11,011 nucleotides of DNA from Ramlibacter sp. (lineage in GTDB: Bacteria; Pseudomonadota; Gammaproteobacteria; Burkholderiales; Burkholderiaceae_C): NCBI GenBank assembly GCA_023701085.1, contig JAMPXR010000042.1:1-11011 (forward strand), given 5' to 3'. Positions 241 to 10,850 of this stretch are shown in pieces. Each line of letters begins with the position of its first letter. Positions within the stretch are counted from its first letter, which is position 1. Under the pieces are notes generated by a model that saw only the letters and a program-made list of their open reading frames with translations, was not told the DNA's origin and made no database searches. The position numbers and the translations under genes are program-made.

Positions 241-254
241 ACCGTGATCACGTC

Positions 255-260
255 AAGGAG
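255..260 (+). promoter_or_regulatory. Ribosome binding site deciding the start of the Bug gene
   Basis: AAGGAG lies 7 nt before the ATG at 268. It selects this start over an upstream in-frame GTG at 244, which has no Shine-Dalgarno sequence and would place extra charged residues before the signal peptide. Confidence 0.75.
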
Positions 261-267
261 ACTTGCG

Positions 268-1254
268 ATGACGCTTCGACGCCGCGCCTTGCTTGCTGCC
301 ACTACCGGACTGGCTCTGCTGGAAGTGCTGCTGCCCGTCGCACACGCGCAGGATGCCTGGCCGGCCAGGCCGGTGCGCATCGTCGTTCCGTTTGCGCCAG
401 GCGGCAGCGCGGACTCGGCAGCTCGACTGCTGGCGCCCAAGCTGTCCGAAAAGCTTGGACGACCCGTGCTCATTGATAACCGCCCGGGTGCCGGTGGCTC
501 GCTGGCCATCGGCCAAGTGGTCAAAGCGCCCGCGGACGGTTACACGGTTTTGCTAGCGGCCGCGGGAGGACTCACGATCTCGCCCGGCCTCAACCCAAAC
601 ATCGGCTACGAGCCGCTAGGCGACCTTGCACCCATTACGGGATTTGCACGCATTCCGTTCGTGCTCGTGACCAATGGCGACCTTGGCATACCTCGCATCG
701 GCGACCTGATCAGGCACGTCCGCGGCAATCCTGGCAAGTTCAGCTATGCCACCGGCGGCAATGGGACTGCCATGCATATTGGCGGCGAGATGTTCAAGGC
801 CATGAGCCAGAGCTACATCGTGCATGTGCCGTATCGCGGCAGCGGGCCGGCAGCTGTCGCGGCGATGTCGGGTGAAGTGCAGATGGCCGTGGTGGACTTC
901 GCCAGCGTGATCGGCCAACGAGACAACCCCAAGCTGAAGCTGATGGCCACGCTCGGCAAGGAACGCAGCACCTTGCTGCCCGACTTGCCTACCCTGCACG
1001 AGAGTGGTCTTGCCGGCTACGACGTGACAGGCTGGTTTGGCTTGTTCGCTCCGGCGCGCACGCCATTACCCATCGTCAGCAGGCTCAACACCGAAATCGT
1101 CGCGCTCCTGCGCACGCCTGAGTTCGCCGAGCGCTTCAGGAATCTTGGGATGGAGCCTCAACCGACGACATCGGATGAATTACGCACGTTGATGCGCAAC
1201 GAAATCGCCGCCTATAGCGCAGTGATCAAGCGCGCCGGTATCAAGCTGGAATAA
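268..1254 (+). CDS. Bug/TctC-family tripartite tricarboxylate transporter substrate-binding protein
   Basis: This 328-residue protein starts at the ATG behind the AAGGAG. It begins with a clear Sec signal peptide: arginines at residues 4-6, a hydrophobic core, and a likely cut after AHA at residue 27. Mature sequence follows the Bug pattern: WPARPVRIVVPFAPGG, then ARLLAPKLSEKLGRPVLIDNRPGAGG, then YATGGNGTAMHIGGEMF and HVPYRGSGPAA in the middle. The length is typical of the family. Bug proteins are periplasmic receptors, usually for small carboxylates and some amides or aromatics; many are orphans with no adjacent TctA/TctB membrane genes, and none is seen here. The gene follows the amidohydrolase closely and converges on the serine-dehydratase gene with only 9 nt between stops. 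The family call is secure; the ligand is unknown. A few codon choices (CTA, TTA, ATT, CAA) are more relaxed than in the genes downstream. Confidence 0.92.
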   Translation: MTLRRRALLAATTGLALLEVLLPVAHAQDAWPARPVRIVVPFAPGGSADSAARLLAPKLSEKLGRPVLIDNRPGAGGSLAIGQVVKAPADGYTVLLAAAGGLTISPGLNPNIGYEPLGDLAPITGFARIPFVLVTNGDLGIPRIGDLIRHVRGNPGKFSYATGGNGTAMHIGGEMFKAMSQSYIVHVPYRGSGPAAVAAMSGEVQMAVVDFASVIGQRDNPKLKLMATLGKERSTLLPDLPTLHESGLAGYDVTGWFGLFAPARTPLPIVSRLNTEIVALLRTPEFAERFRNLGMEPQPTTSDELRTLMRNEIAAYSAVIKRAGIKLE

Positions 1255-1263
1255 CGAGCTGCC

Positions 1264-2505
1264 TCAACTCCCCATCCCCGGAACGCTCCCCTGCCCCTTG
1301 AGGCCGTGCACGTAGATCTTCGCGAGGCCGCCCTGCGCCGTTTCGCGGTAGGTCGACTTCAGGTCGCGGCCGGTTTCCCACATGGTGCGCACGACTTCGT
1401 CGAAGGACACCAGGTGGTGGCCGTCGGATAGCAGTGCGTAGGCCGCGCAGTCCACGGCCCGCACCGCGGCCACGGCATTGCGTTCGATGCAGGGAATCTG
1501 GACATAGCCGCCGATCGGATCGCAAGTCAGGCCCAGGTGATGCTCCAGCCCCATCTCGGCGGCGTATTCGATCTGACGCACCGTGCCGCCCAGCAATTGC
1601 GCGGCCGCCGCCGCGGCCATGGAACAGGCGGTGCCCACCTCGCCCTGGCAGCCGACCTCGGCGCCCGAGATCGAGGCGTTGCGCTTGACGATGTTGCCTA
1701 TCATGCCGGCCGTGGCCAGCGCGTGCAGGATCTTTTCCTGCGACAGCCTGGATTGCTGCTGCAGGAAGAACAGCACGGCCGGCAGCACACCGCAGGCGCC
1801 GCAGGTGGGCGCCGTGACGACTTCGCCGCCCGCGGCGTTCTGCTCCGAGACCGCCAGGGCATAGGCGAACAGCAGCGCGGTCTGGCCGAAGTAGCCGGTC
1901 AGGTTCTGCGCCCGGGCGTGATAGGACGAGGCCTTGCGCAGCACGTTCAGGCTGCCGGGCAGGCGCCCTTCGGTGTCGAGGCCGCTCTCGATGGAGCGCC
2001 GCATCGTGGCCCAGACGTCGCCGAAATACGGCCAGATCGACTCCCCCTCGTGGCGCGCGACCATTTCCCAGATGAGCAGGCCTTCGCGTTCGGTTTCCCC
2101 GAGCACCTGGCTCATGGCGGTGTAGGGGTACACCTCGGGTCCGCCATCGGGCCGGCCCTCCTCGTCGAGCAAGGCGCCGCCGCCGACCGAGTAGGCGACG
2201 CGCGATGCGAGCACCCGGCCCGCGGCGTCGAGCGCCTCGAAGCGCATGCCGTTGGGGTGGCGCGGCAGGCTCTGCTCGGGCAGCCAGACGATCTCGACCG
2301 GCCTCGGCACAAATGGCGCGCTGACGGCGTGGTCCGTCAGGTGGCCGCGGCCGGTCGCGGCGAGACTGCCATAGAGCGTGACCCGCACCTTCGCGGCCGC
2401 TTCCGGAATCGACGCGGCGAAGGCGTCGGCCGCGAAGCGCGGGCCCATCGTATGACTGCTCGAAGGGCCGAGGCCGATGCGATAGAGTTCTCGAAGAGAT
2501 TTCAC
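1264..2505 (-). CDS. Iron-sulfur-dependent L-serine ammonia-lyase homologue, divergent
   Basis: This 413-residue protein resembles single-chain SdaA-type enzymes, which convert L-serine to pyruvate and ammonia using a [4Fe-4S] cluster. Visible landmarks are GIGPSSSHT-like GLGPSSSHTMGP (residues 11-22), YSVGGG (105-110), NASISGAEVGCQGEVG (276-291) and TCDPIGGYVQIPCIERN (327-343). The cluster cysteines are C286, C328 and C339, spaced 42 and 11, as in the Legionella enzyme. The start is a GTG at 2505, forming a GTGA overlap with the hyuA stop and preceded by AAGGA. It is shorter than E. coli SdaA (about 454). Two oddities stand out. The usual APTNGA segment reads APTCGACG (C235 for Asn). The C-terminus has no cysteine, although the single-chain enzymes known to me end with one that caps the cluster. 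The position downstream of hyuA suggests a pathway amino acid as substrate, either serine or a related C3 amino acid. Fold is certain; substrate is open. Confidence 0.88.
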   Translation of the reverse strand: MKSLRELYRIGLGPSSSHTMGPRFAADAFAASIPEAAAKVRVTLYGSLAATGRGHLTDHAVSAPFVPRPVEIVWLPEQSLPRHPNGMRFEALDAAGRVLASRVAYSVGGGALLDEEGRPDGGPEVYPYTAMSQVLGETEREGLLIWEMVARHEGESIWPYFGDVWATMRRSIESGLDTEGRLPGSLNVLRKASSYHARAQNLTGYFGQTALLFAYALAVSEQNAAGGEVVTAPTCGACGVLPAVLFFLQQQSRLSQEKILHALATAGMIGNIVKRNASISGAEVGCQGEVGTACSMAAAAAAQLLGGTVRQIEYAAEMGLEHHLGLTCDPIGGYVQIPCIERNAVAAVRAVDCAAYALLSDGHHLVSFDEVVRTMWETGRDLKSTYRETAQGGLAKIYVHGLKGQGSVPGMGS

Positions 2506-3904
2506 CGGGTCTGTCCTTGATAGGGATGGCCAAAGGGCGCACGCGCTACATAACGGCCATCGCCGGATTGGGCGCGAAGGTCGCCATCCGCCCAGACATG
2601 AGCGCCACGGCTGAAGGTGTGCAGCACTACGCCACGCACCTCCATTCCCTCCCAGACCGAAAAGTCCGTGTTCTGGTGCTGGGTTGCCGCCGACAGCTTC
2701 TTCGTCTTTGCCGGATCGAGCACGATCACGTCGGCGTCGCCGCCGATTTCCAGCCCGCCCTTGCGCGGCCACAGGTTGAAGCTGCGCGCGGCGTTGGTGG
2801 ACGTCAGCGCCACGAACTGCTCGGGCGAAATCCGGCCGCCGTTCACGCCCAGCTGCCACAGCACATGCAGGCGGTCCTCGACGCCACCGCAGCCGTTGGG
2901 AATCCGCGTGAAGTCGCCCTCGCCCAGCCGCTTCTGGGCCTTGGTGAAACAGCAGTGGTCGGTGCCCGTGGTGCTGAGCGTGCCGTCCTGCACGGCCTGC
3001 CAGAGCGCCTGCTGGTGTTCGCGCGGGCGGTACGGCGGGCTCATCACATGGCCGGCGGCGAAGTCGAAGTCGGGGTGGCGGTACACCGAATCGTCGATCG
3101 CCAGAAAGCCGGGGAGCGTCTCGCCGATCACCTTGACACCGCGCCCGCGCGCCTGGGCGATGGCGCGCGCCGCTTCCGCCGCCGACACATGCACGACGTA
3201 CAGCGGGACGCCGACGGTCTCCGCGATGGTGATGGCGCGCACCGTCGCTTCGCCTTCGCACTGGGGCGGGCGCGACAGCACATGGCCCAGCGGCGAGTTG
3301 AGGCCTTCGGCGCGCATCTTCGCTTGCAGGTACGCGATGAGGTCGCCGTTTTCCGCGTGCACCTGGGGCAGCGCGCCCAGCTCGCGGCAGCGCTGGAAGC
3401 CGGCAATCAGGTCTTCGTCCGGCAGCATCAAGCCGCCCTTGTAGGCCAGGAAGAACTTGAAACTGGTGAGGCCGTGGTCGCGCACCAGGGCCGTCATCTC
3501 TTCCGAGAAACGCGGCCCCCACCAGGACACGGTCATGTGAAAGCCATAGTCGATGGCGGCCTTCGCGGCTTTGCCCCGCCAGACTTGCAGCGCCTCCAGC
3601 GGCGGCTGGCCGCGCTCGGCCCCGACGAAGTCCAGGATCGTCGTGGTGCCCCCGGCCGCGGCGGCGGCCGTGCCGGTGTAGAAATCGTCCGCCACCACCG
3701 TCCCCATCATCGGCAGCTGCATGTGGGTGTGCGGATCGACGCCGCCGGGCATCACGAAGCAGCCGCCGGCGTCGATCACCTGCGCGCCGGCGCTGGCCGT
3801 CAGATTGGCGCCGACGGCGACGATCAGCCCGTCGCGGCACAGCAGGTCGGCGCACTCGCGGCCCTCAGCGGTGACCACCGTGCCGCCGCGGATCAGGATC
3901 TCGT

Positions 3905-3908
<4 letters not shown>
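2502..3908 (-). CDS. hyuA: Dihydropyrimidinase/hydantoinase-family cyclic amidohydrolase (HyuA-like)
   Basis: This 468-residue protein is a complete D-hydantoinase/dihydropyrimidinase-type enzyme that hydrolyses cyclic amide or ureide bonds in the cytoplasm. The full binuclear metal site can be read: H60 and H62 in GGVDPHTH, carboxylatable K151 in TSFKFFLAYKG, H184 in QVHAENGD, H240 in YVVHVSAAEA and D317 in GTDHCCF. Y156 and the MSPPYRPR loop (289-296) match the substrate-binding region. The C-terminal half carries IPNGCGGVEDRLHVLW, typical of the family and of E. coli HyuA (461 residues). The start ATG overlaps the ygfK stop in an ATGA. No Shine-Dalgarno is obvious, so translation is probably coupled. 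The stop overlaps the next start as GTGA. Adjacency to ygfK and an amino-acid ammonia-lyase argues for a purine-derived ring intermediate rather than ordinary dihydrouracil, but dihydropyrimidine or hydantoin substrates remain possible. Confidence 0.92.
2514..2518 (-). promoter_or_regulatory. Ribosome binding site of the serine-dehydratase gene
   Basis: AAGGA on the minus strand lies 8 nt before the GTG at 2505, inside the end of hyuA. It supports the GTG start, which otherwise would be doubtful because the same frame stays open far upstream as an antisense-free shadow of hyuA. Confidence 0.6.
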
Positions 3909-5962
<2,054 letters not shown>

Positions 5963-5988
5963 GGTTTCTTCAGGTGTGCGTGCGACTA

Positions 5989-6017
5989 TTGCCGGCCATG
6001 ACTGTGCCACACATGAT
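5989..6017 (+). promoter_or_regulatory. Candidate sigma-70 promoter for the xdhD-ssnA operon
   Basis: TTGCCG (5989-5994, four of six) and CATGAT (6012-6017, four of six) are spaced by 17 nt on the plus strand. It would leave a leader of about 70 nt before the xdhD ATG. It overlaps the candidate minus-strand promoter almost completely, so the two could compete or share one regulator. It is weak evidence by sequence alone. Confidence 0.3.
5997..6015. promoter_or_regulatory. Inverted repeat, candidate operator in the divergent control region
   Basis: CATG-ACTGTGCCACA-CATG is an imperfect 19-bp palindrome centred on 6006, with symmetric CATG ends and an inner TG/CA pair; a perfect TGTG-N3-CACA lies within it at 6003-6013. 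It sits midway in the 133-nt gap and overlaps the candidate -10 elements of both divergent promoters, as expected for a shared operator. No regulator gene is visible in the window. Confidence 0.35.
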
Positions 6018-6026
6018 TTCGGTCAA
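5998..6026 (-). promoter_or_regulatory. Candidate sigma-70 promoter for the ygfK-hyuA-serine dehydratase operon
   Basis: On the minus strand TTGACC (6026-6021, five of six consensus bases) is followed after exactly 17 nt by AGTCAT (6003-5998, three of six). It would start transcription about 30 nt ahead of the ygfK ATG. The weak -10 and its overlap with an inverted repeat suggest it may need or be blocked by a regulator. This is a consensus match only. Confidence 0.35.
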
Positions 6027-6081
6027 AGCATGGGCCCAAACCCGCACCTACAGTCGACTCTTTCCGCCAGCCATGGCGGCC

Positions 6082-6086
6082 GAGGG
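6082..6086 (+). promoter_or_regulatory. Ribosome binding site of the xdhD-like gene
   Basis: GAGGG lies 9 nt before the ATG at 6096 and supports that start over the in-frame ATG at 5961, which would overlap the ygfK start. A CCGCC/GGCGG inverted repeat (6064-6068 with 6075-6079) lies just before it and could fold in the leader, though at this GC content it may be chance. Confidence 0.5.
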
Positions 6087-6095
6087 CGTTCCACC

Positions 6096-8735
6096 ATGAA
6101 CCTGTATCAATTCTCCCTCAACGGTGCGCCCGTGCAGGCACATGCGCATCCCGACCGGCTGCTGCTCGAAGTGCTGCGGGAGAATTTCAAGATCACCTCG
6201 GTCAAGAACGGCTGCGCGCCCCAGCAGGCCTGCGGCGCCTGCCTGGCCCTGGTCAACGGCGCGCCGATGAATACCTGCGGCCTGACCATGGACAAGGTGC
6301 AGGGCAAGCAGATCCTTACGCTGGAAGGCGTCAGCGATGCCGAGCGCGATCTGTTCGCGCGCGCCTTCCAGTTGGCCGCCGGCCTGCAATGCGGCTTCTG
6401 CACCCCGGGCTTGCTGCTGCGCATCAAGTGGCTGGCCGATCGGGGCCGCGCCATGTCGCGCGCCGAAATCGCGCGGGCGCTCACCGGTCACCTGTGCCGC
6501 TGCACCGGCTACGTCAAGATCATCGACGCGGTGGAAATGATCTTCGATGCCAAGCGCACCGGCCGCCTGCCCGAGCCGGTGACCCGCGGCGGCGTCGGCC
6601 AGCCGCTGGGCCGCTACCAGGGGCTTGAACTGGCGCTGGGCGCGCGGCCCTTCGTCGCCGACATCGATGTGCCCGGCTTGCTGCACGGCGCCATGGTGCT
6701 GTCGCCGCACGCGCGGGCCCGCGTGCTGGGCGTCGCCACCGCCGCGGCCGCCGCGCTGCCGGGGGTGGTGCGCGTGCTCACCGCCAAGGACGTTCCGGGC
6801 GACCGCTGGGTGGGCCAGATCTACAAGGACTGGCCGGTCATCGTGGCCGAGGGCGAGGAAGTGCGCTGCGTCGGCGATGTGCTGGCGGTGGTCGCGGCCG
6901 AGACGCCGCAGATCGCGCGCGCGGCGGCGGCGCTGGTGGAAGTGACTTACGAAAAGCTCGTGCCCGTGCTCGATCCGGCGCAGGCGATCGAGCCCGGCGC
7001 GCCCCAGGTCAATCCCAGGCACGACAACCTGCTGTCGCTCACCAAAATCCAGCGCGGCGACGTAGATGCGGCGCTGGCCGCATCGGCCCATGTGGTGAGC
7101 GGCACCTGGCAGACCCAGCGCATCGAGCACCTGTTCCTGGAGCCGGAAGCGGCCCTGGCCGTGCCGCTGCAGGACGGCCGGCTGCACCTGCTGACGCAGG
7201 GCCAAGGCGTGTTCGAGGACCGGCGCCAGGTAGCCTCGGTGCTCGGTGAGCCCGAGCAGAACGTCTTTGCCGAACTGGTGCCCAATGGCGGCGCCTTCGG
7301 CGGCAAGGAGGACATGACGATCCAGGCGCAGACCGCGCTGCTGGCGCGCGCGACCGGACGGCCGGTGCGGATCGAATTGAACCGGGAAGAGTCGGTGCGC
7401 ATCCACCCCAAGCGCCACCCGATCACCATGAGCTACACGGTAGGCTGCGACGCGCAAGGGCGCCTCACGGCCGCGCGCATCAAGCTCTTGGGCGATTCGG
7501 GCGCCTACGCCTCGGTCGGCGGCAAGGTGCTGGAGCGCGCCGCCGGCCATGCCTGCGGGCCGTACCGCATTCCGGCGCTGGACATCGAAGCGCGCGCCGC
7601 CTACACCAACAACCCGCCCTGCGGCGCGATGCGCGGCTTTGGCGTGAACCAGACCAGTTTCGGCATCGAAGGCTGCGTCGATCTGCTGGCGAAGAAAGTC
7701 GGCATCGACGGCTGGGAAATGCGCTGGCTCAACGCCGTGCGCATCGGCGACGTGTTCAGTAGCGGCCAGGTGCTCGAAAAATCAGTCGGCGTGGAAAAGA
7801 CCCTGCTGGCCGTCAAGGACGCCTACTACGCCGCGCGCAAGGCGGGACGCGCGGTAGGCATCGCCTGCGGCGTGAAGAACTCGGGCCTGGGCAACGGCGC
7901 CATCGAAAAAGGCCGGTGCGCCCTGGTGGTGGAGAGCGACGGCCACGTCGGCCTGTACATCGGCTTCACCGAGATGGGACAAGGCCTGCTCACGGTGATG
8001 ATGCAGATGGCCGCGGAAGTGACCGGCCTGCCGGCGTCCGTGTTCCAGCCCAAGGTGAACAGCCGCTTCGAGCTGGGAGGCGGCCAGACCACGGGATCGC
8101 GCGCGACCATGCTGTCCGGCCGCGCCACCATCGCCGCGGCCGAGAAGCTGCGGGACGACCTGAAGGCGGGCCACACGTTGCGCGATCTGGCCGGCCGTAT
8201 CTACGAAGGCGAAACCACCATCGACGACACCACCGCGCCGGGCCAGTTGAAGAACGGCAAGATCAAGACGCACACCGCCTTCGGCTGGTCGACGCAGGTC
8301 GTGGTGCTGGACGAAGCCGGCGCGGTGGCTCGCGTGCACGTGGCGCAGGACGTGGGGCGCGCCATCAATCCGCAGCAATGCGAGGCGCAGGTCCAGGGCG
8401 CGGTGCACATGGGGCTGGGTTACGCCCTGACCGAGGAGCTGCCCTGCAAGGACGGCATGCCGGTGACCTTCCACCCGCGCGAGATCGGCGTGCTGCGGGC
8501 GCCCCACATGCCGGAAGTCGAAGTGACCATCGTCGAGGAGCACGAACCCGAAGGTCCGTTCGGCGCCAAGGGCATCGGCGAACTCGGCCTGGTGCCCACG
8601 GCCGGCGCCGTGGCGGCCGCGCTCGAGGCGTTCGACGGCGTGCGGCGCATGACGCTGCCGATGAAAGACTCGCCGGCCGCGCGCGCCATCGACGTCGGCC
8701 GCATCAAGGACGACGATCGCGACCAATGGCACTGA
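6096..8735 (+). CDS. xdhD: XdhD-like molybdenum hydroxylase, [2Fe-2S] domains fused to molybdopterin domain
   Basis: This 879-residue protein is a xanthine-dehydrogenase-family hydroxylase. Residues 1 to about 150 hold two [2Fe-2S] sites: C40, C46, C49, C61 (GCAPQQACGAC, with five residues between the first two cysteines) and C99, C102, C134, C136 (QCGFCTPG, HLCRCTGY). From about 175 onward comes the molybdopterin-binding part: LHGAMVLSPHARARV, NGGAFGGKED, GAMRGFGVNQTSF, TEMGQGLLTV, GGGQTTGSRATM and GPFGAKGIGELG, whose E829 is the expected catalytic base. E405 and R513 align with bovine xanthine oxidase E802 and R880, which orient purines, so a purine-like substrate is plausible. There is no FAD domain, and no separate FAD subunit in the window. 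The cofactor would be sulfurated and inserted by XdhC, encoded nearby. E. coli XdhD (956 residues) has the same FeS-Mo fusion. The end overlaps ssnA by 10 nt. Family certain; direction (oxidation or reduction) unknown. Confidence 0.92.
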   Translation: MNLYQFSLNGAPVQAHAHPDRLLLEVLRENFKITSVKNGCAPQQACGACLALVNGAPMNTCGLTMDKVQGKQILTLEGVSDAERDLFARAFQLAAGLQCGFCTPGLLLRIKWLADRGRAMSRAEIARALTGHLCRCTGYVKIIDAVEMIFDAKRTGRLPEPVTRGGVGQPLGRYQGLELALGARPFVADIDVPGLLHGAMVLSPHARARVLGVATAAAAALPGVVRVLTAKDVPGDRWVGQIYKDWPVIVAEGEEVRCVGDVLAVVAAETPQIARAAAALVEVTYEKLVPVLDPAQAIEPGAPQVNPRHDNLLSLTKIQRGDVDAALAASAHVVSGTWQTQRIEHLFLEPEAALAVPLQDGRLHLLTQGQGVFEDRRQVASVLGEPEQNVFAELVPNGGAFGGKEDMTIQAQTALLARATGRPVRIELNREESVRIHPKRHPITMSYTVGCDAQGRLTAARIKLLGDSGAYASVGGKVLERAAGHACGPYRIPALDIEARAAYTNNPPCGAMRGFGVNQTSFGIEGCVDLLAKKVGIDGWEMRWLNAVRIGDVFSSGQVLEKSVGVEKTLLAVKDAYYAARKAGRAVGIACGVKNSGLGNGAIEKGRCALVVESDGHVGLYIGFTEMGQGLLTVMMQMAAEVTGLPASVFQPKVNSRFELGGGQTTGSRATMLSGRATIAAAEKLRDDLKAGHTLRDLAGRIYEGETTIDDTTAPGQLKNGKIKTHTAFGWSTQVVVLDEAGAVARVHVAQDVGRAINPQQCEAQVQGAVHMGLGYALTEELPCKDGMPVTFHPREIGVLRAPHMPEVEVTIVEEHEPEGPFGAKGIGELGLVPTAGAVAAALEAFDGVRRMTLPMKDSPAARAIDVGRIKDDDRDQWH

Positions 8736-9919
8736 CAGCGCCTGCGCTGCTGGTCGGCCCGGACCGCCATGGCCGCAGCGTGGCGGTGGCGGGCGGCCTG
8801 GTCGTCGGAGAGGCGCCGCCCGATGCGGCGCGGCTGCCCTGCCCCGAGGGGGAGATCAGCGCCGGCGCGGTTTGCGCCCACACCCACCTCTACAGCGGGC
8901 TGGCGCGCCACGGTATGCCGCCCGCCACCCCCGCGCCGGAATCGTTCGTGGAAATCCTGGAGCGCGTGTGGTGGAAGCTCGACCGTGCGCTCGACGCGCA
9001 GAGCCTGCGCGCCTCCGCGCTGGACTACGTGGCGCGGGCGTTGCTGGCGGGAACGACGGCTCTGGTCGATCACCACGAGTCGCCCAACCTGATCGAGGGA
9101 TCAATTGAGATCCTGGCCGGCGCCTGCGAGCAACTGGGCGTGCGCGCGCTGCTGTGTTACGGCGCGACCGAGCGCAACTTCGGCGCCGACGAAGCGCGCC
9201 GCGGCCTGGACGAATGCCGGCGGGTGCCGGCCTCGCCGCTGCTGCGCGGCCTGGTCGGACTGCATGCGAGCTTCACCGTCTCGGACCAAACCATCCAGGC
9301 CGCCGGGCAGCTGGCGCGGGAGCTGGGTACCGTGCTGCATGTGCACGTGGCCGAGGACCAGGCCGATGTCGCCGACGCGCTGGCTCGCGGCTACCCCGGG
9401 CCGCTGGAGCGGCTGGAGCGATTGGGCGCCCTGCCGCGCGGGACTATCCTGGCCCATGGCGTGCACCTGAGCGCCGAGCAGGTGCGCCGCGCTGGCGAAC
9501 TCGGCTGCTGGCTGGTGCACAACCCGAGATCCAACGAAGGCAACCGCGTCGGCTACGCGCGGAAGCTGGGCGAAAGCGGCCGGGTGGCCCTGGGCTGCGA
9601 TGGCTGGGACGCCGACATGACGGTGGAGCAGCAGGCGCTGGACCGGCTGGCGGCGGCCCACGGCGACACCCGGACCGGCGAACGGCTGGCGCGGGGGAAC
9701 GCCTTGATCGCGGAACGTTTCGGCACCCGCCCCGAGCCGCTGCAACCCGGCGCCCTGGGCGACCTCGTGGTCCGGCAGCACGGCGCGATCCAGCATGTGG
9801 TGGTGGGCGGGCGCGTGGTCGTTGCCAAAGGCGCGCTGGTCACCGGCGACTTCGACGCCATCACCGCCCAAGCCCGGGCGCAGGCCGAGCGGCTGTGGCT
9901 GCGCATGGCGAGCCTATGA
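8726..9919 (+). CDS. ssnA: SsnA-like aminohydrolase of the ATZ/TRZ amidohydrolase family
   Basis: This 397-residue protein is a metal-dependent amidohydrolase/deaminase closest in pattern to E. coli SsnA (442 residues). The metal site reads H52 and H54 in AHTHLYSGLARHGM, D115-H116-H117 in VDHHESP, HVHVAED (205-211), H244 in LAHGVHLS and D292 in LGCDGWDADM. The stretch VWWKLDRALDAQSL matches the SsnA-type WW[RK]LDRALD signature. Ring deamination or C-N hydrolysis is the expected chemistry. SsnA is required along with XdhD, YgfK and HyuA homologues in anaerobic urate-degrading clusters. The start ATG lies within the last codons of xdhD (10-nt overlap); an AAGGA at 8706-8710 is rather distant, so coupling is likely. 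The protein is short near its C-terminus: the PTPL...H loop that normally precedes the V.VNG strand is missing, with DLVVRQHG running straight into QHVVVGGRVV. Substrate uncertain. Confidence 0.87.
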   Translation: MALTAPALLVGPDRHGRSVAVAGGLVVGEAPPDAARLPCPEGEISAGAVCAHTHLYSGLARHGMPPATPAPESFVEILERVWWKLDRALDAQSLRASALDYVARALLAGTTALVDHHESPNLIEGSIEILAGACEQLGVRALLCYGATERNFGADEARRGLDECRRVPASPLLRGLVGLHASFTVSDQTIQAAGQLARELGTVLHVHVAEDQADVADALARGYPGPLERLERLGALPRGTILAHGVHLSAEQVRRAGELGCWLVHNPRSNEGNRVGYARKLGESGRVALGCDGWDADMTVEQQALDRLAAAHGDTRTGERLARGNALIAERFGTRPEPLQPGALGDLVVRQHGAIQHVVVGGRVVVAKGALVTGDFDAITAQARAQAERLWLRMASL

Positions 9920-9941: not shown

Positions 9942-10850
9942 TCATTGACGCAACTTCAGCAGTTGTGCCGCCACCGCAATCGCGATCACCTCGGGCTCCT
10001 TGCCGTCGATACCGGGCAAGCCGACCGGGCATGTCATTCGCTCGATCGCCTCGAATGCGATTCCGCGCGCCTCCAGCCGATGGATGAAGCGCGCGCGCTT
10101 GGTGGCCGATCCGATCAGGCCGAAAAACGCGAAGTCGCCGCGCTTCAGAATCGCCTCGCTGATGCGGAAGTCCAGGTCATGACTGTGCGTCATCACGAGG
10201 TAGTGCGCGTTCGGCGGCGCGACGGCAACCTCTGCCTCGACAGACTCCACGCACACCCGCTCGATGTGAGACGCCGACGGCTCGAACGGGAAGCCGTTGT
10301 CGCGTTCATCGATCCACTGTATGCGACAGTCGGGAATGCCTTCGAGCACGCGCACGATCGCGCGGCCGACGTGGCCGGCGCCGTACAGCTGCAGATGAAA
10401 GCGTAGGCGTGGCTCGGGCCAAGCGCTGAGCGCGTCCGCGCTCAGCGGTTCGAAGCGCAAGGTGACCGCGCCGCCGCAGCACTGGCCGAGCGTGGGGCCG
10501 AGCAGCAGGTGGCGCTCGTGCACCGTCCCGGCGTGTTCCGACCGGTTTGCGATCGCCTTCCCCAGACCGCCCGCAAGCCCATCCACGAGGCATGCGCGCG
10601 CCTCGTTGATCGCAACCATCTCGAGATGGCCGCCGCCTATCGTGCCCAGCACCTGGTCGGATCCAACCAGCATTCGCGTGCCCGCCTCGCGCGGCACGGA
10701 GCCGCGCGCAGCGGTGACGGTCACCAGCATCGCGGGTCGGGCAGCAGCCAACCAGTGCGCGGCCTGCTCGCGCAAGGGGAGCGCAGGCGGTGTCGACCGC
10801 ATGGCCTCGAATTGGGCATGCAGCAGGAAGGGTTCGACGGCACGGTTCAT
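9942..10850 (-). CDS. xdhC: XdhC-family molybdenum cofactor maturation/insertion protein
   Basis: This 302-residue protein has the two-part XdhC/CoxI architecture. The N-terminal domain includes ARGSVPREAGTRMLVG (48-63), TIGGGHLEMVAINEAR (70-85) and the cysteine pair in LGQCCGG (121-127). The C-terminal Rossmann-like domain has LYGAGHVGRAIVRVLE (155-170) and WIDERD (179-184), then MTHSHDLDF and GLIGSATKRARF. XdhC proteins bind molybdopterin, guide its sulfuration and hand it to apo-xanthine dehydrogenases in the cytoplasm; the XdhD-like enzyme is the obvious client. It is transcribed toward ssnA, with 22 nt between stops, so it is not in the same transcript. The ATG at 10850 has GGAG 5 nt upstream and overlaps the stop of the preceding gene (ATGA). 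A later Met at residue 17 is possible but has no comparable signal. In E. coli the related yqeB lies in the equivalent cluster. Confidence 0.9.
   Translation of the reverse strand: MNRAVEPFLLHAQFEAMRSTPPALPLREQAAHWLAAARPAMLVTVTAARGSVPREAGTRMLVGSDQVLGTIGGGHLEMVAINEARACLVDGLAGGLGKAIANRSEHAGTVHERHLLLGPTLGQCCGGAVTLRFEPLSADALSAWPEPRLRFHLQLYGAGHVGRAIVRVLEGIPDCRIQWIDERDNGFPFEPSASHIERVCVESVEAEVAVAPPNAHYLVMTHSHDLDFRISEAILKRGDFAFFGLIGSATKRARFIHRLEARGIAFEAIERMTCPVGLPGIDGKEPEVIAIAVAAQLLKLRQ

Follow-up and report, generated by a model that had tools for sequence, protein, structure and literature searches.

Contig C371 of a Ramlibacter sp. metagenome-assembled genome (MAG; 3.1 Mb in 543 contigs, 81% complete) poses the question of which pathway is served by a ygfK-hyuA-ssnA-xdhD cluster that has a serine-dehydratase gene joined to it. 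The complete contig, 11,011 bases long, was analysed and is called the window below. Enzymes of the same four families, from E. coli and C. difficile, were assayed as the front half of a reductive uric acid pathway published in 2025 (Li et al., PMC12507026). We consider it probable that the window, too, encodes the front half of this reductive, oxygen-independent urate pathway, in an environmental form, and that a hydrolytic back half is encoded by a second contig of the same MAG, C312. Indeed, the nearest relative, another Ramlibacter MAG (locus L014), carries one 15-kb cluster in which uacT-ssnA-xdhD stands divergent to ygfK-hyuA-M20-DCase-PALP-PALP-sda (DCase being a CN_hydrolase), and C312 carries M20-CN_hydrolase-PALP-PALP with 83% DNA identity to the corresponding block.

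Proposed front-half genes of the window

The window holds the following features (scores are for the models named).

244..1254, + strand: tctC, TctC/Bug-family periplasmic receptor (PF03401, 218 bits)
1264..2505, - strand: sda, single-chain iron-sulfur L-serine dehydratase family, short subfamily, 413 residues (TIGR00720, 435 bits, cut-off 345)
2502..3908, - strand: hyuA, D-hydantoinase/dihydropyrimidinase-like, 468 residues (TIGR02033, 570 bits, cut-off 393)
3905..5962, - strand: ygfK, short form, 685 residues (TIGR03315, 413 bits, cut-off 835)
5963..6095, no strand: intergenic region between the divergent operons, with presumed promoters (from the sequence)
6096..8735, + strand: xdhD, XdhD/XdhAC-like molybdenum hydroxylase (TIGR03311, 886 bits, cut-off 830)
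8726..9919, + strand: ssnA, SsnA-like amidohydrolase (PRK07203, 257 bits, cut-off 444; TIGR03314, 239 bits, cut-off 455.5)
9942..10850, - strand: xdhC, molybdenum-hydroxylase maturation factor (TIGR02964, 280 bits, cut-off 162)

The initial annotation had read these genes as a reorganised ygfK-hyuA-ssnA-xdhD system in two divergent operons, with xdhC beside them and a serine-dehydratase homologue added; gene content and profile matches bear this out, every gene lying at or near the place given for it. One operon is formed by ygfK, hyuA and sda, with 4-bp overlaps between ygfK and hyuA (ATGA) and between hyuA and sda (GTGA); an assembly error at the sda-hyuA junction was considered and rejected, as the clean GTGA overlap speaks against it. 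The second operon, divergent from ygfK, consists of xdhD and ssnA, which overlap by 10 bp, and xdhC converges on ssnA from the opposite strand. No inverted repeat or operator common to the window and its relatives was found in the intergenic regions. To compare neighbourhoods, as had been proposed, we used the best 80 of 572 confirmed ygfK loci, many of them broken by contig ends. Several of the window genes are also neighbours in Ramlibacter, Propionivibrio, Anaeromyxobacter, Pleomorphomonas and further groups, and the arrangement is therefore non-random. TctC-like matches above 60 bits occur in 4 of the 80 loci, and it is uncertain whether the TctC/Bug receptor belongs to the urate system.

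The labels YgfK-like and XdhD-like stand as statements of family, but YgfK is short (685 against 1032 residues in E. coli) and XdhD is not of the E. coli type. Residues 4-494 of the short YgfK align with residues 5-512 of E. coli YgfK at 37% identity, and residues 491-581 with 899-965; the Pyr_redox_2 FAD/NAD(P)H module of the E. coli protein (residues 552-839) is missing, and with this middle module absent the score falls under the TIGR03315 cut-off. For E. coli YgfK, Li et al. modelled a site for FMN (PMC12507026). The tail has two cysteine clusters of the 4Fe-4S type, at residues 493-504 and 554-564. The first of them (window 4451-4486) reads C-x3-C-x2-C-x3-C in 5 of 21 alignment rows, those of the window and its closest relatives; the remaining rows read C-x2-C-x2-C-x3-C, one residue shorter.

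XdhD combines [2Fe-2S] and molybdenum-cofactor domains in one chain, and the window has no trace of a gene for an FAD subunit; the E. coli FAD subunits YgfM and XdhB had no match in the window or in L014, the regions searched. Assignment to the E. coli type was rejected, because TIGR03313, the model of that type, gives 202 bits against 886 for TIGR03311 (E. coli XdhD itself scores 2123 bits with TIGR03313).

TIGR03311 bears the name selenium-dependent xanthine dehydrogenase. SelD scores over its cut-off in the genome of the window (427.7 bits, contig C255) and in those of the Ramlibacter and Propionivibrio relatives, and gives weak matches only in two Telmatospirillum and three Pleomorphomonas genomes. 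A strict selenium dependence of the whole XdhD family was rejected on this mismatch: the XdhD of Pleomorphomonas L076 (11900-14545) passes TIGR03311 with 871 bits, and SelD in its genome is far under the cut-off. Selenium is thus probably not needed by all members of the TIGR03311 type, and "selenium-dependent" may be too restrictive a name for the family. YqeB (TIGR03309) adjoins the Propionivibrio cluster and is not in the window.

SsnA, a marker of the reductive urate pathway in print, is 33% identical to E. coli SsnA over 417 columns in the window and keeps two HxH blocks; the SsnA models are its best family match, though it scores under their cut-offs. In the SsnA tree it falls in a 14-row clade (support 100/100) apart from the E. 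coli and Enterococcus proteins. The HyuA tree joins the window with Ramlibacter, Propionivibrio, Telmatospirillum and Anaeromyxobacter in one clade (7 rows, two of them identical; 100/98), sister to four plasmid dihydropyrimidinases, three of them with preA no more than 3 kb away. The initial annotation held that phylogenies placing the XdhD-, SsnA- and HyuA-like proteins away from the urate-cluster clades would speak against it. The SsnA and HyuA trees do place these two proteins outside the E. coli clades, but their own clades are drawn from ygfK-linked loci. On these trees, the shared names HyuA and SsnA thus cover separate recruitments or deep splits.

A candidate back half on contig C312

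The block on C312 was found by searching the genome of the window with the right-hand half of L014, and a search with the M20 protein confirmed the match (85%). C312 stops 164 bases beyond the last PALP gene and has a gene for an RpiR-type regulator upstream of M20; RpiR-like matches above 100 bits also occur in L029, L033, L038, L076, L120, L122 and L123 (L038 and L122 are from one genome). The composition of the two contigs is similar (GC 0.682 for C312 and 0.684 for the window; tetranucleotide r 0.985). In this genome sda directly follows hyuA, and M20-DCase-PALP-PALP is a separate block.

The best model matches to YgeW and YgeX in the genome, 81% complete, reach 35.5 and 49.5 bits (cut-offs 500 and 532), so that the proposed search of the host for these two genes revealed no orthologue of either genome-wide. 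We nevertheless rejected a truly incomplete gene set, and the claim that several canonical members are lacking does not hold as a trait of the organism, since C312 supplies non-orthologous candidates: DCase, M20 and two genes for PLP-fold (PALP) enzymes.

Alignments indicate that the CN_hydrolase of C312 (DCase) is a close relative of N-carbamoyl-D-amino-acid hydrolases. To a solved enzyme of that name, 8i99, it scores 440 bits and its Ramlibacter counterpart 436, solved enzymes of other names giving at most 78 bits. The alignment keeps the blocks FPELAL, KYRKIHLPGH and CNDRRW, which we take to hold the Glu-Lys-Cys triad. M20 belongs to the hydantoinase/carbamoylase family (TIGR01879, 407 bits, cut-off 204), and among solved structures it matches amidases of this family with 365 bits and allantoate amidohydrolase chains with at most 190. 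It has no BLAST match to E. coli YgeY and scores 19.6 bits with the YgeY model TIGR03526 (cut-off 321.5). One of the PALP genes is threonine-synthase-like; the other encodes a cysteine-synthase-like protein of 486 residues.

By analogy with the assayed enzymes, XdhD would convert urate to yanthine (2,8-dioxopurine). The short YgfK would reduce the yanthine ring, using a ferredoxin-like donor; SsnA would hydrolyse the reduced yanthine, opening the pyrimidine ring to give ureidomethyl-hydantoin (UMH); and HyuA would open the hydantoin ring of UMH to give 2,3-diureidopropionate (DUPA). For the enzymes that follow, the predictions are drawn only from family and position: DCase would take the 2-ureido group off (R)-DUPA to leave D-albizziin, the M20 carbamoylase would take off the 3-ureido group to leave 2,3-diaminopropionate (DAP), and the two PALP enzymes would break down DAP. 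The back half would thus be non-orthologous: the roles of YgeW, YqeA and YgeY would fall to DCase and M20, and that of YgeX to the two PALP enzymes, perhaps together with Sda. The PALP pair is put in YgeX's place because YgeX occupies the same place in Pleomorphomonas (L029, L033 and L076), where the order is YgeX-M20-DCase-ygfK-xdhD-ssnA and no Sda is seen. As to the different late intermediates that the initial annotation suggested, the ureido groups are probably removed by hydrolysis, with the intermediates unchanged; only the last step, possibly with serine as a product, might differ.

Sda may, speculatively, take L-serine formed in this last step to pyruvate, again on family and position. 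In favour of such a role, three gene orders connect Sda with the pathway: hyuA-sda in the window, PALP-sda in Ramlibacter L014 and sda-hyuA in Telmatospirillum L018, where it is longer (455 residues). On balance we lean slightly towards an ordinary enzyme of L-serine catabolism that is merely co-transcribed, the PALP pair alone converting DAP to pyruvate, a reading compatible with the proposed urate pathway. Just 3 of the 80 loci show an Sda homologue; Propionivibrio (L121) carries the short Sda away from the cluster, and the same subfamily occurs in Accumulibacter; the genomes of the window, Ramlibacter and Propionivibrio yielded no sda besides the short one; and Pleomorphomonas has YgeX in that slot. 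A weaker Sda homologue (117 bits) is found in L051, a Gemmatimonadetes MAG, where it accompanies a YgeW-YqeA-YgeY back half and both kinds of PALP.

Two back halves, the substrate and the alternatives

Across the 80 loci, an Xdh homologue is found in 47, SsnA in 42, the M20 carbamoylase in 19, a CN-hydrolase in 16, HyuA in 11 and a UacY-like protein in 3; the 486-residue PALP is found in 32 and threonine-synthase-like PALP (two groups pooled) in 27. For the known back half the counts are 16 for YgeW, 16 for YgeY, 11 for YqeA and 5 for YgeX. The query for these loci was built from short YgfK forms, and long-form gut clusters are therefore under-represented.

The two back halves do not mix across the 80 loci. 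The M20 carbamoylase and YgeY share no locus. A CN-hydrolase or UacY-like gene accompanies 17 of 19 M20 genes and none of 16 YgeY genes (Fisher p 4e-8 over the 35 loci that have M20 or YgeY, without correction for descent), and YgeW accompanies 15 of 16 YgeY genes and none of 19 M20 genes (p 5e-9, likewise). Other partial sets are L040 (CN-hydrolase without M20), L022 (UacY-like without M20), L049 (YgeY without YgeW) and L093 (weak YgeW without YgeY). The CN-hydrolase is D-carbamoylase-like in six loci (L014, L029, L033, L050, L067 and L076) and of a second kind in 10 loci titled Myxococcota, Planctomycetota or Elusimicrobiota; the two of these 10 that were compared, from L078 and L043, resemble beta-ureidopropionase or N-carbamoylputrescine amidase. 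The UacY-like protein of L038, the one compared, matches solved D-aminoacylases. YgeX (5 loci) and the threonine-synthase-like PALP (27 loci) have no locus in common. Of 10 whole genomes searched for YgeX, only the three from Pleomorphomonas have long YgeX-like matches (353-368 bits, cut-off 532). Of 11 searched for YgeW, only that of L016 has a long match (466 bits, cut-off 500, clipped by a contig end), and that of L043 has a partial one of 69 bits.

Among 399 genomes of the order the short YgfK is found in one, that of the window, with four others reaching 18-22 bits only; at E <=1e-60 the search found 2 of 369 genomes of the class, that of the window and one with a frame of 1132 residues, which may be the long YgfK form. 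By record titles, the 80 loci cover 13 phylum-level groups, and the 39 that have ygfK together with Xdh and SsnA homologues cover 11. Groundwater, lake, soil, peat or sea appears in many of the titles (uncounted), and many others give no source. In the plasmid collection 7 records have YgfK matches, all distant (38-40% identity) and none of the close kind. Among the plasmids, L160 of Enterococcus faecalis (NZ_CP142821.1, 93976-106507) has ssnA-ygfK-hydA-dpaL-ygeY-ygeW-arcC, ygfK is found on two from Salmonella (H5 and H6), and three E. coli records of 4.8-4.9 Mb (H1-H3) look like misfiled chromosomes.

Urate as the substrate rests on two UacT-like permeases and on the enzyme families. The permease genes adjoin ssnA in L014 (Ramlibacter) and L015 (Propionivibrio), and the proteins reach 52% and 50% identity to UacT, the urate permease of E. 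coli, with scores of 448 and 437 bits; their scores to XanQ are 134 and 128 bits. The suggestion of the initial annotation that the altered gene set points to a different substrate was therefore not supported, though these two loci are the only ones of the 80 with the permease in view.

The genome of the window also appears to encode an oxidative urate route, candidate genes for which turned up when uricase and allantoinase genes were sought, as had been proposed. Contig C136 (L144, 645-3858) has HIUase, a fusion of OHCU decarboxylase with an M20 domain, and a polysaccharide-deacetylase-family protein that we take to be a PuuE-type allantoinase; contig C536 (L146, 2785-3690) has a urate oxidase of the PF06181 kind. 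HIUase and PF06181 are both found in 7 of 8 genomes searched, the exception being Propionivibrio dicarboxylicus. The HIUase profile also matches in E. coli, and HIUase alone is thus no proof of this route. The co-occurrence of the reductive genes with urate oxidase in 7 of 8 genomes suggests an oxygen-dependent switch between the two routes; we found no mention of such a switch in the consulted part of PMC12507026 or in a 2025 commentary (PMC12990295).

Several observations weigh against the proposed urate pathway or against its two-contig form. No continuous sequence joins C371 to C312; they are connected by belonging to one MAG, by composition and by synteny in a relative. The YgfK (413 bits) and SsnA (257 and 239 bits) of the window are under the curated cut-offs. 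In the survey, the scores had been seen before thresholds for counting exclusions were chosen, and the loci share descent, so that exclusion does not represent independent events. L028 and L047 have M20 alone, with no partner hydrolase. The division between YgeX and the PALP pair is less neat than that between the hydrolases: L091 joins YgeX with the 486-residue PALP, and 11 of the 32 loci with this PALP show no threonine-synthase-like partner. The remaining adverse points are best weighed with the readings that they favour.

First, the cluster might degrade another nitrogen heterocycle (another purine, a hydantoin or a pterin), the gene set reflecting that substrate. XdhD of the window shares just 25% identity with its E. 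coli counterpart, and the segment holding E. coli Glu606, a residue proposed to orient urate (PMC12507026), is missing in an alignment that is ambiguous there; HyuA and SsnA form clades of their own; no uacT homologue was found in the MAG, which is incomplete and was searched without a positive control; and a Bug receptor with no assigned ligand flanks the cluster. We regard this reading as unlikely. The C. difficile XdhD is likewise about 26% identical to that of E. coli, yet its assigned substrate is urate (PMC12507026), two relatives have UacT-like permeases next to ssnA, and a candidate gene exists for each step of the urate pathway. A pure pyrimidine pathway was also considered and rejected, as XdhD, SsnA and UacT do not fit it.

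Second, the C312 block might serve general catabolism of D-hydantoins, D-carbamoyl-amino acids, pyrimidines or allantoate, with no functional tie to the window. D-hydantoinase and D-carbamoylase are the classic hydantoin pair, and the block does lie on a separate contig. The HyuA of the window groups more closely with pyrimidine dihydropyrimidinases than with its E. coli namesake (in a tree where the rows of E. coli and Enterococcus are long-branched). The best NCBIfam match of M20 is the allantoate amidohydrolase subfamily, whose cut-off it passes (479 bits, cut-off 452), and M20 could serve the oxidative route instead, a point tempered by the second M20 domain, fused to OHCU decarboxylase, that is already available there. 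Three observations make this second reading improbable: in L014 ygfK-hyuA, the block and sda form one uninterrupted stretch, M20-DCase adjoins ygfK-xdhD-ssnA in Pleomorphomonas (L029, L033 and L076), and M20 with CN-hydrolase or UacY stays unmixed with YgeW-YgeY across the loci.

We therefore return to the proposed urate pathway and to its supply of electrons. Since neither XdhD nor YgfK carries an FAD/NAD(P)H module, both reductases probably need an outside donor, by analogy a ferredoxin-like one: such modules are likewise missing from C. difficile XdhD and UacX, whose donor, in the published view, is ferredoxin (PMC12507026). Very improbably, the two enzymes could instead serve each other, XdhD oxidising a reduced purine and YgfK reducing the product with no external donor, as the missing modules and the lack of a recognised donor gene in the window or L014 would allow, but the C. 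difficile enzymes argue otherwise, xdhD and ygfK are in divergent operons and a complex of the two has no direct support. Near the Propionivibrio cluster (L015, 14039-21867) are genes for a GltD/DHODB-like fused flavoprotein and a pyruvate:ferredoxin-oxidoreductase-like protein, possible sources of reduced ferredoxin.

Significance and comparison with known systems

The commentary describes the reductive pathway as restricted to obligate or facultative anaerobes, favours an origin in the gut, and lists as open points the order of ureido cleavage, R/D stereochemistry, the electron donor of XdhAC, and old invention as against gut adaptation (PMC12990295). Loci of the window type bear on each of these four points. 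A relative of D-carbamoyl-amino-acid hydrolases in the place of YgeW or UacY favours cleavage of the 2-ureido group first and the D form; an XdhD/YgfK pair without an FAD/NAD(P)H module bears on the question of the donor; and the 11 phylum-level groups, with the many environmental titles, speak against a purely intestinal origin. It is conceivable, if doubtful, that the gut pathway is a branch of an older environmental one with ferredoxin-fed XdhD and YgfK, a fully hydrolytic D-series back half, conversion of DAP to L-serine by two PLP enzymes and on to pyruvate by Sda, and an oxygen-dependent switch to PuuD-type oxidation. For the engineering of bacteria that lower urate, the hydrolytic enzymes are additional parts.

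Among the titles and abstract openings listed in searches of the urate-pathway literature, none reports the hydrolytic variant, and the terms carbamoylase, nitrilase, serine and Burkholderia are absent from the main text of PMC12507026. In the neighbourhoods shown by Li et al. (PMC12507026), colours for YgeW/UacY, YgeY and YgeX follow Pfam families, and for this reason M20 and PALP genes of the window kind may have been counted there as YgeY and YgeX.

With the E. coli pathway (xdhD-ygfM, ygfK, ssnA, hyuA, ygeW-yqeA, ygeY and ygeX; PMC12507026) the window shares a front half of XdhD, YgfK, SsnA and HyuA families and the expected intermediates to DUPA and DAP, and a UacT-type permease is found in two relatives. 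In contrast to E. coli, XdhD is here of another subfamily and without YgfM, YgfK has no FAD/NAD(P)H domain, HyuA is of the dihydropyrimidinase clade, YgeW and YgeX were not found genome-wide, M20 is unlike YgeY, and the same genome also has candidates for an oxidative route. That oxidative pathway (PuuD, HIUase, OHCU decarboxylase, allantoinase and allantoate hydrolase) starts from the same substrate, but its enzymes and intermediates differ.

The pair of D-hydantoinase and N-carbamoyl-D-amino-acid hydrolase has homologues of the same families here in HyuA and DCase. Unlike that pair, these are found, in the relatives, inside a purine reductase cluster, and a third hydrolase, M20, would remove the second ureido group. 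The C. difficile/C. sporogenes cluster (XdhD/XdhAC, UacX and UacY) likewise has an XdhD without an FAD subunit, for which a ferredoxin-type donor was proposed, and removes the 2-ureido group by hydrolysis rather than phosphorolysis, as is predicted here. The two differ in their parts: the reductase is of the YgfK type here and UacX, of the DHO_dh type, there; a nitrilase-fold D-carbamoylase here would correspond to the D-aminoacylase-like UacY there; and here an M20 carbamoylase would stand for YgeY and two PALP enzymes, perhaps with Sda, for YgeX.

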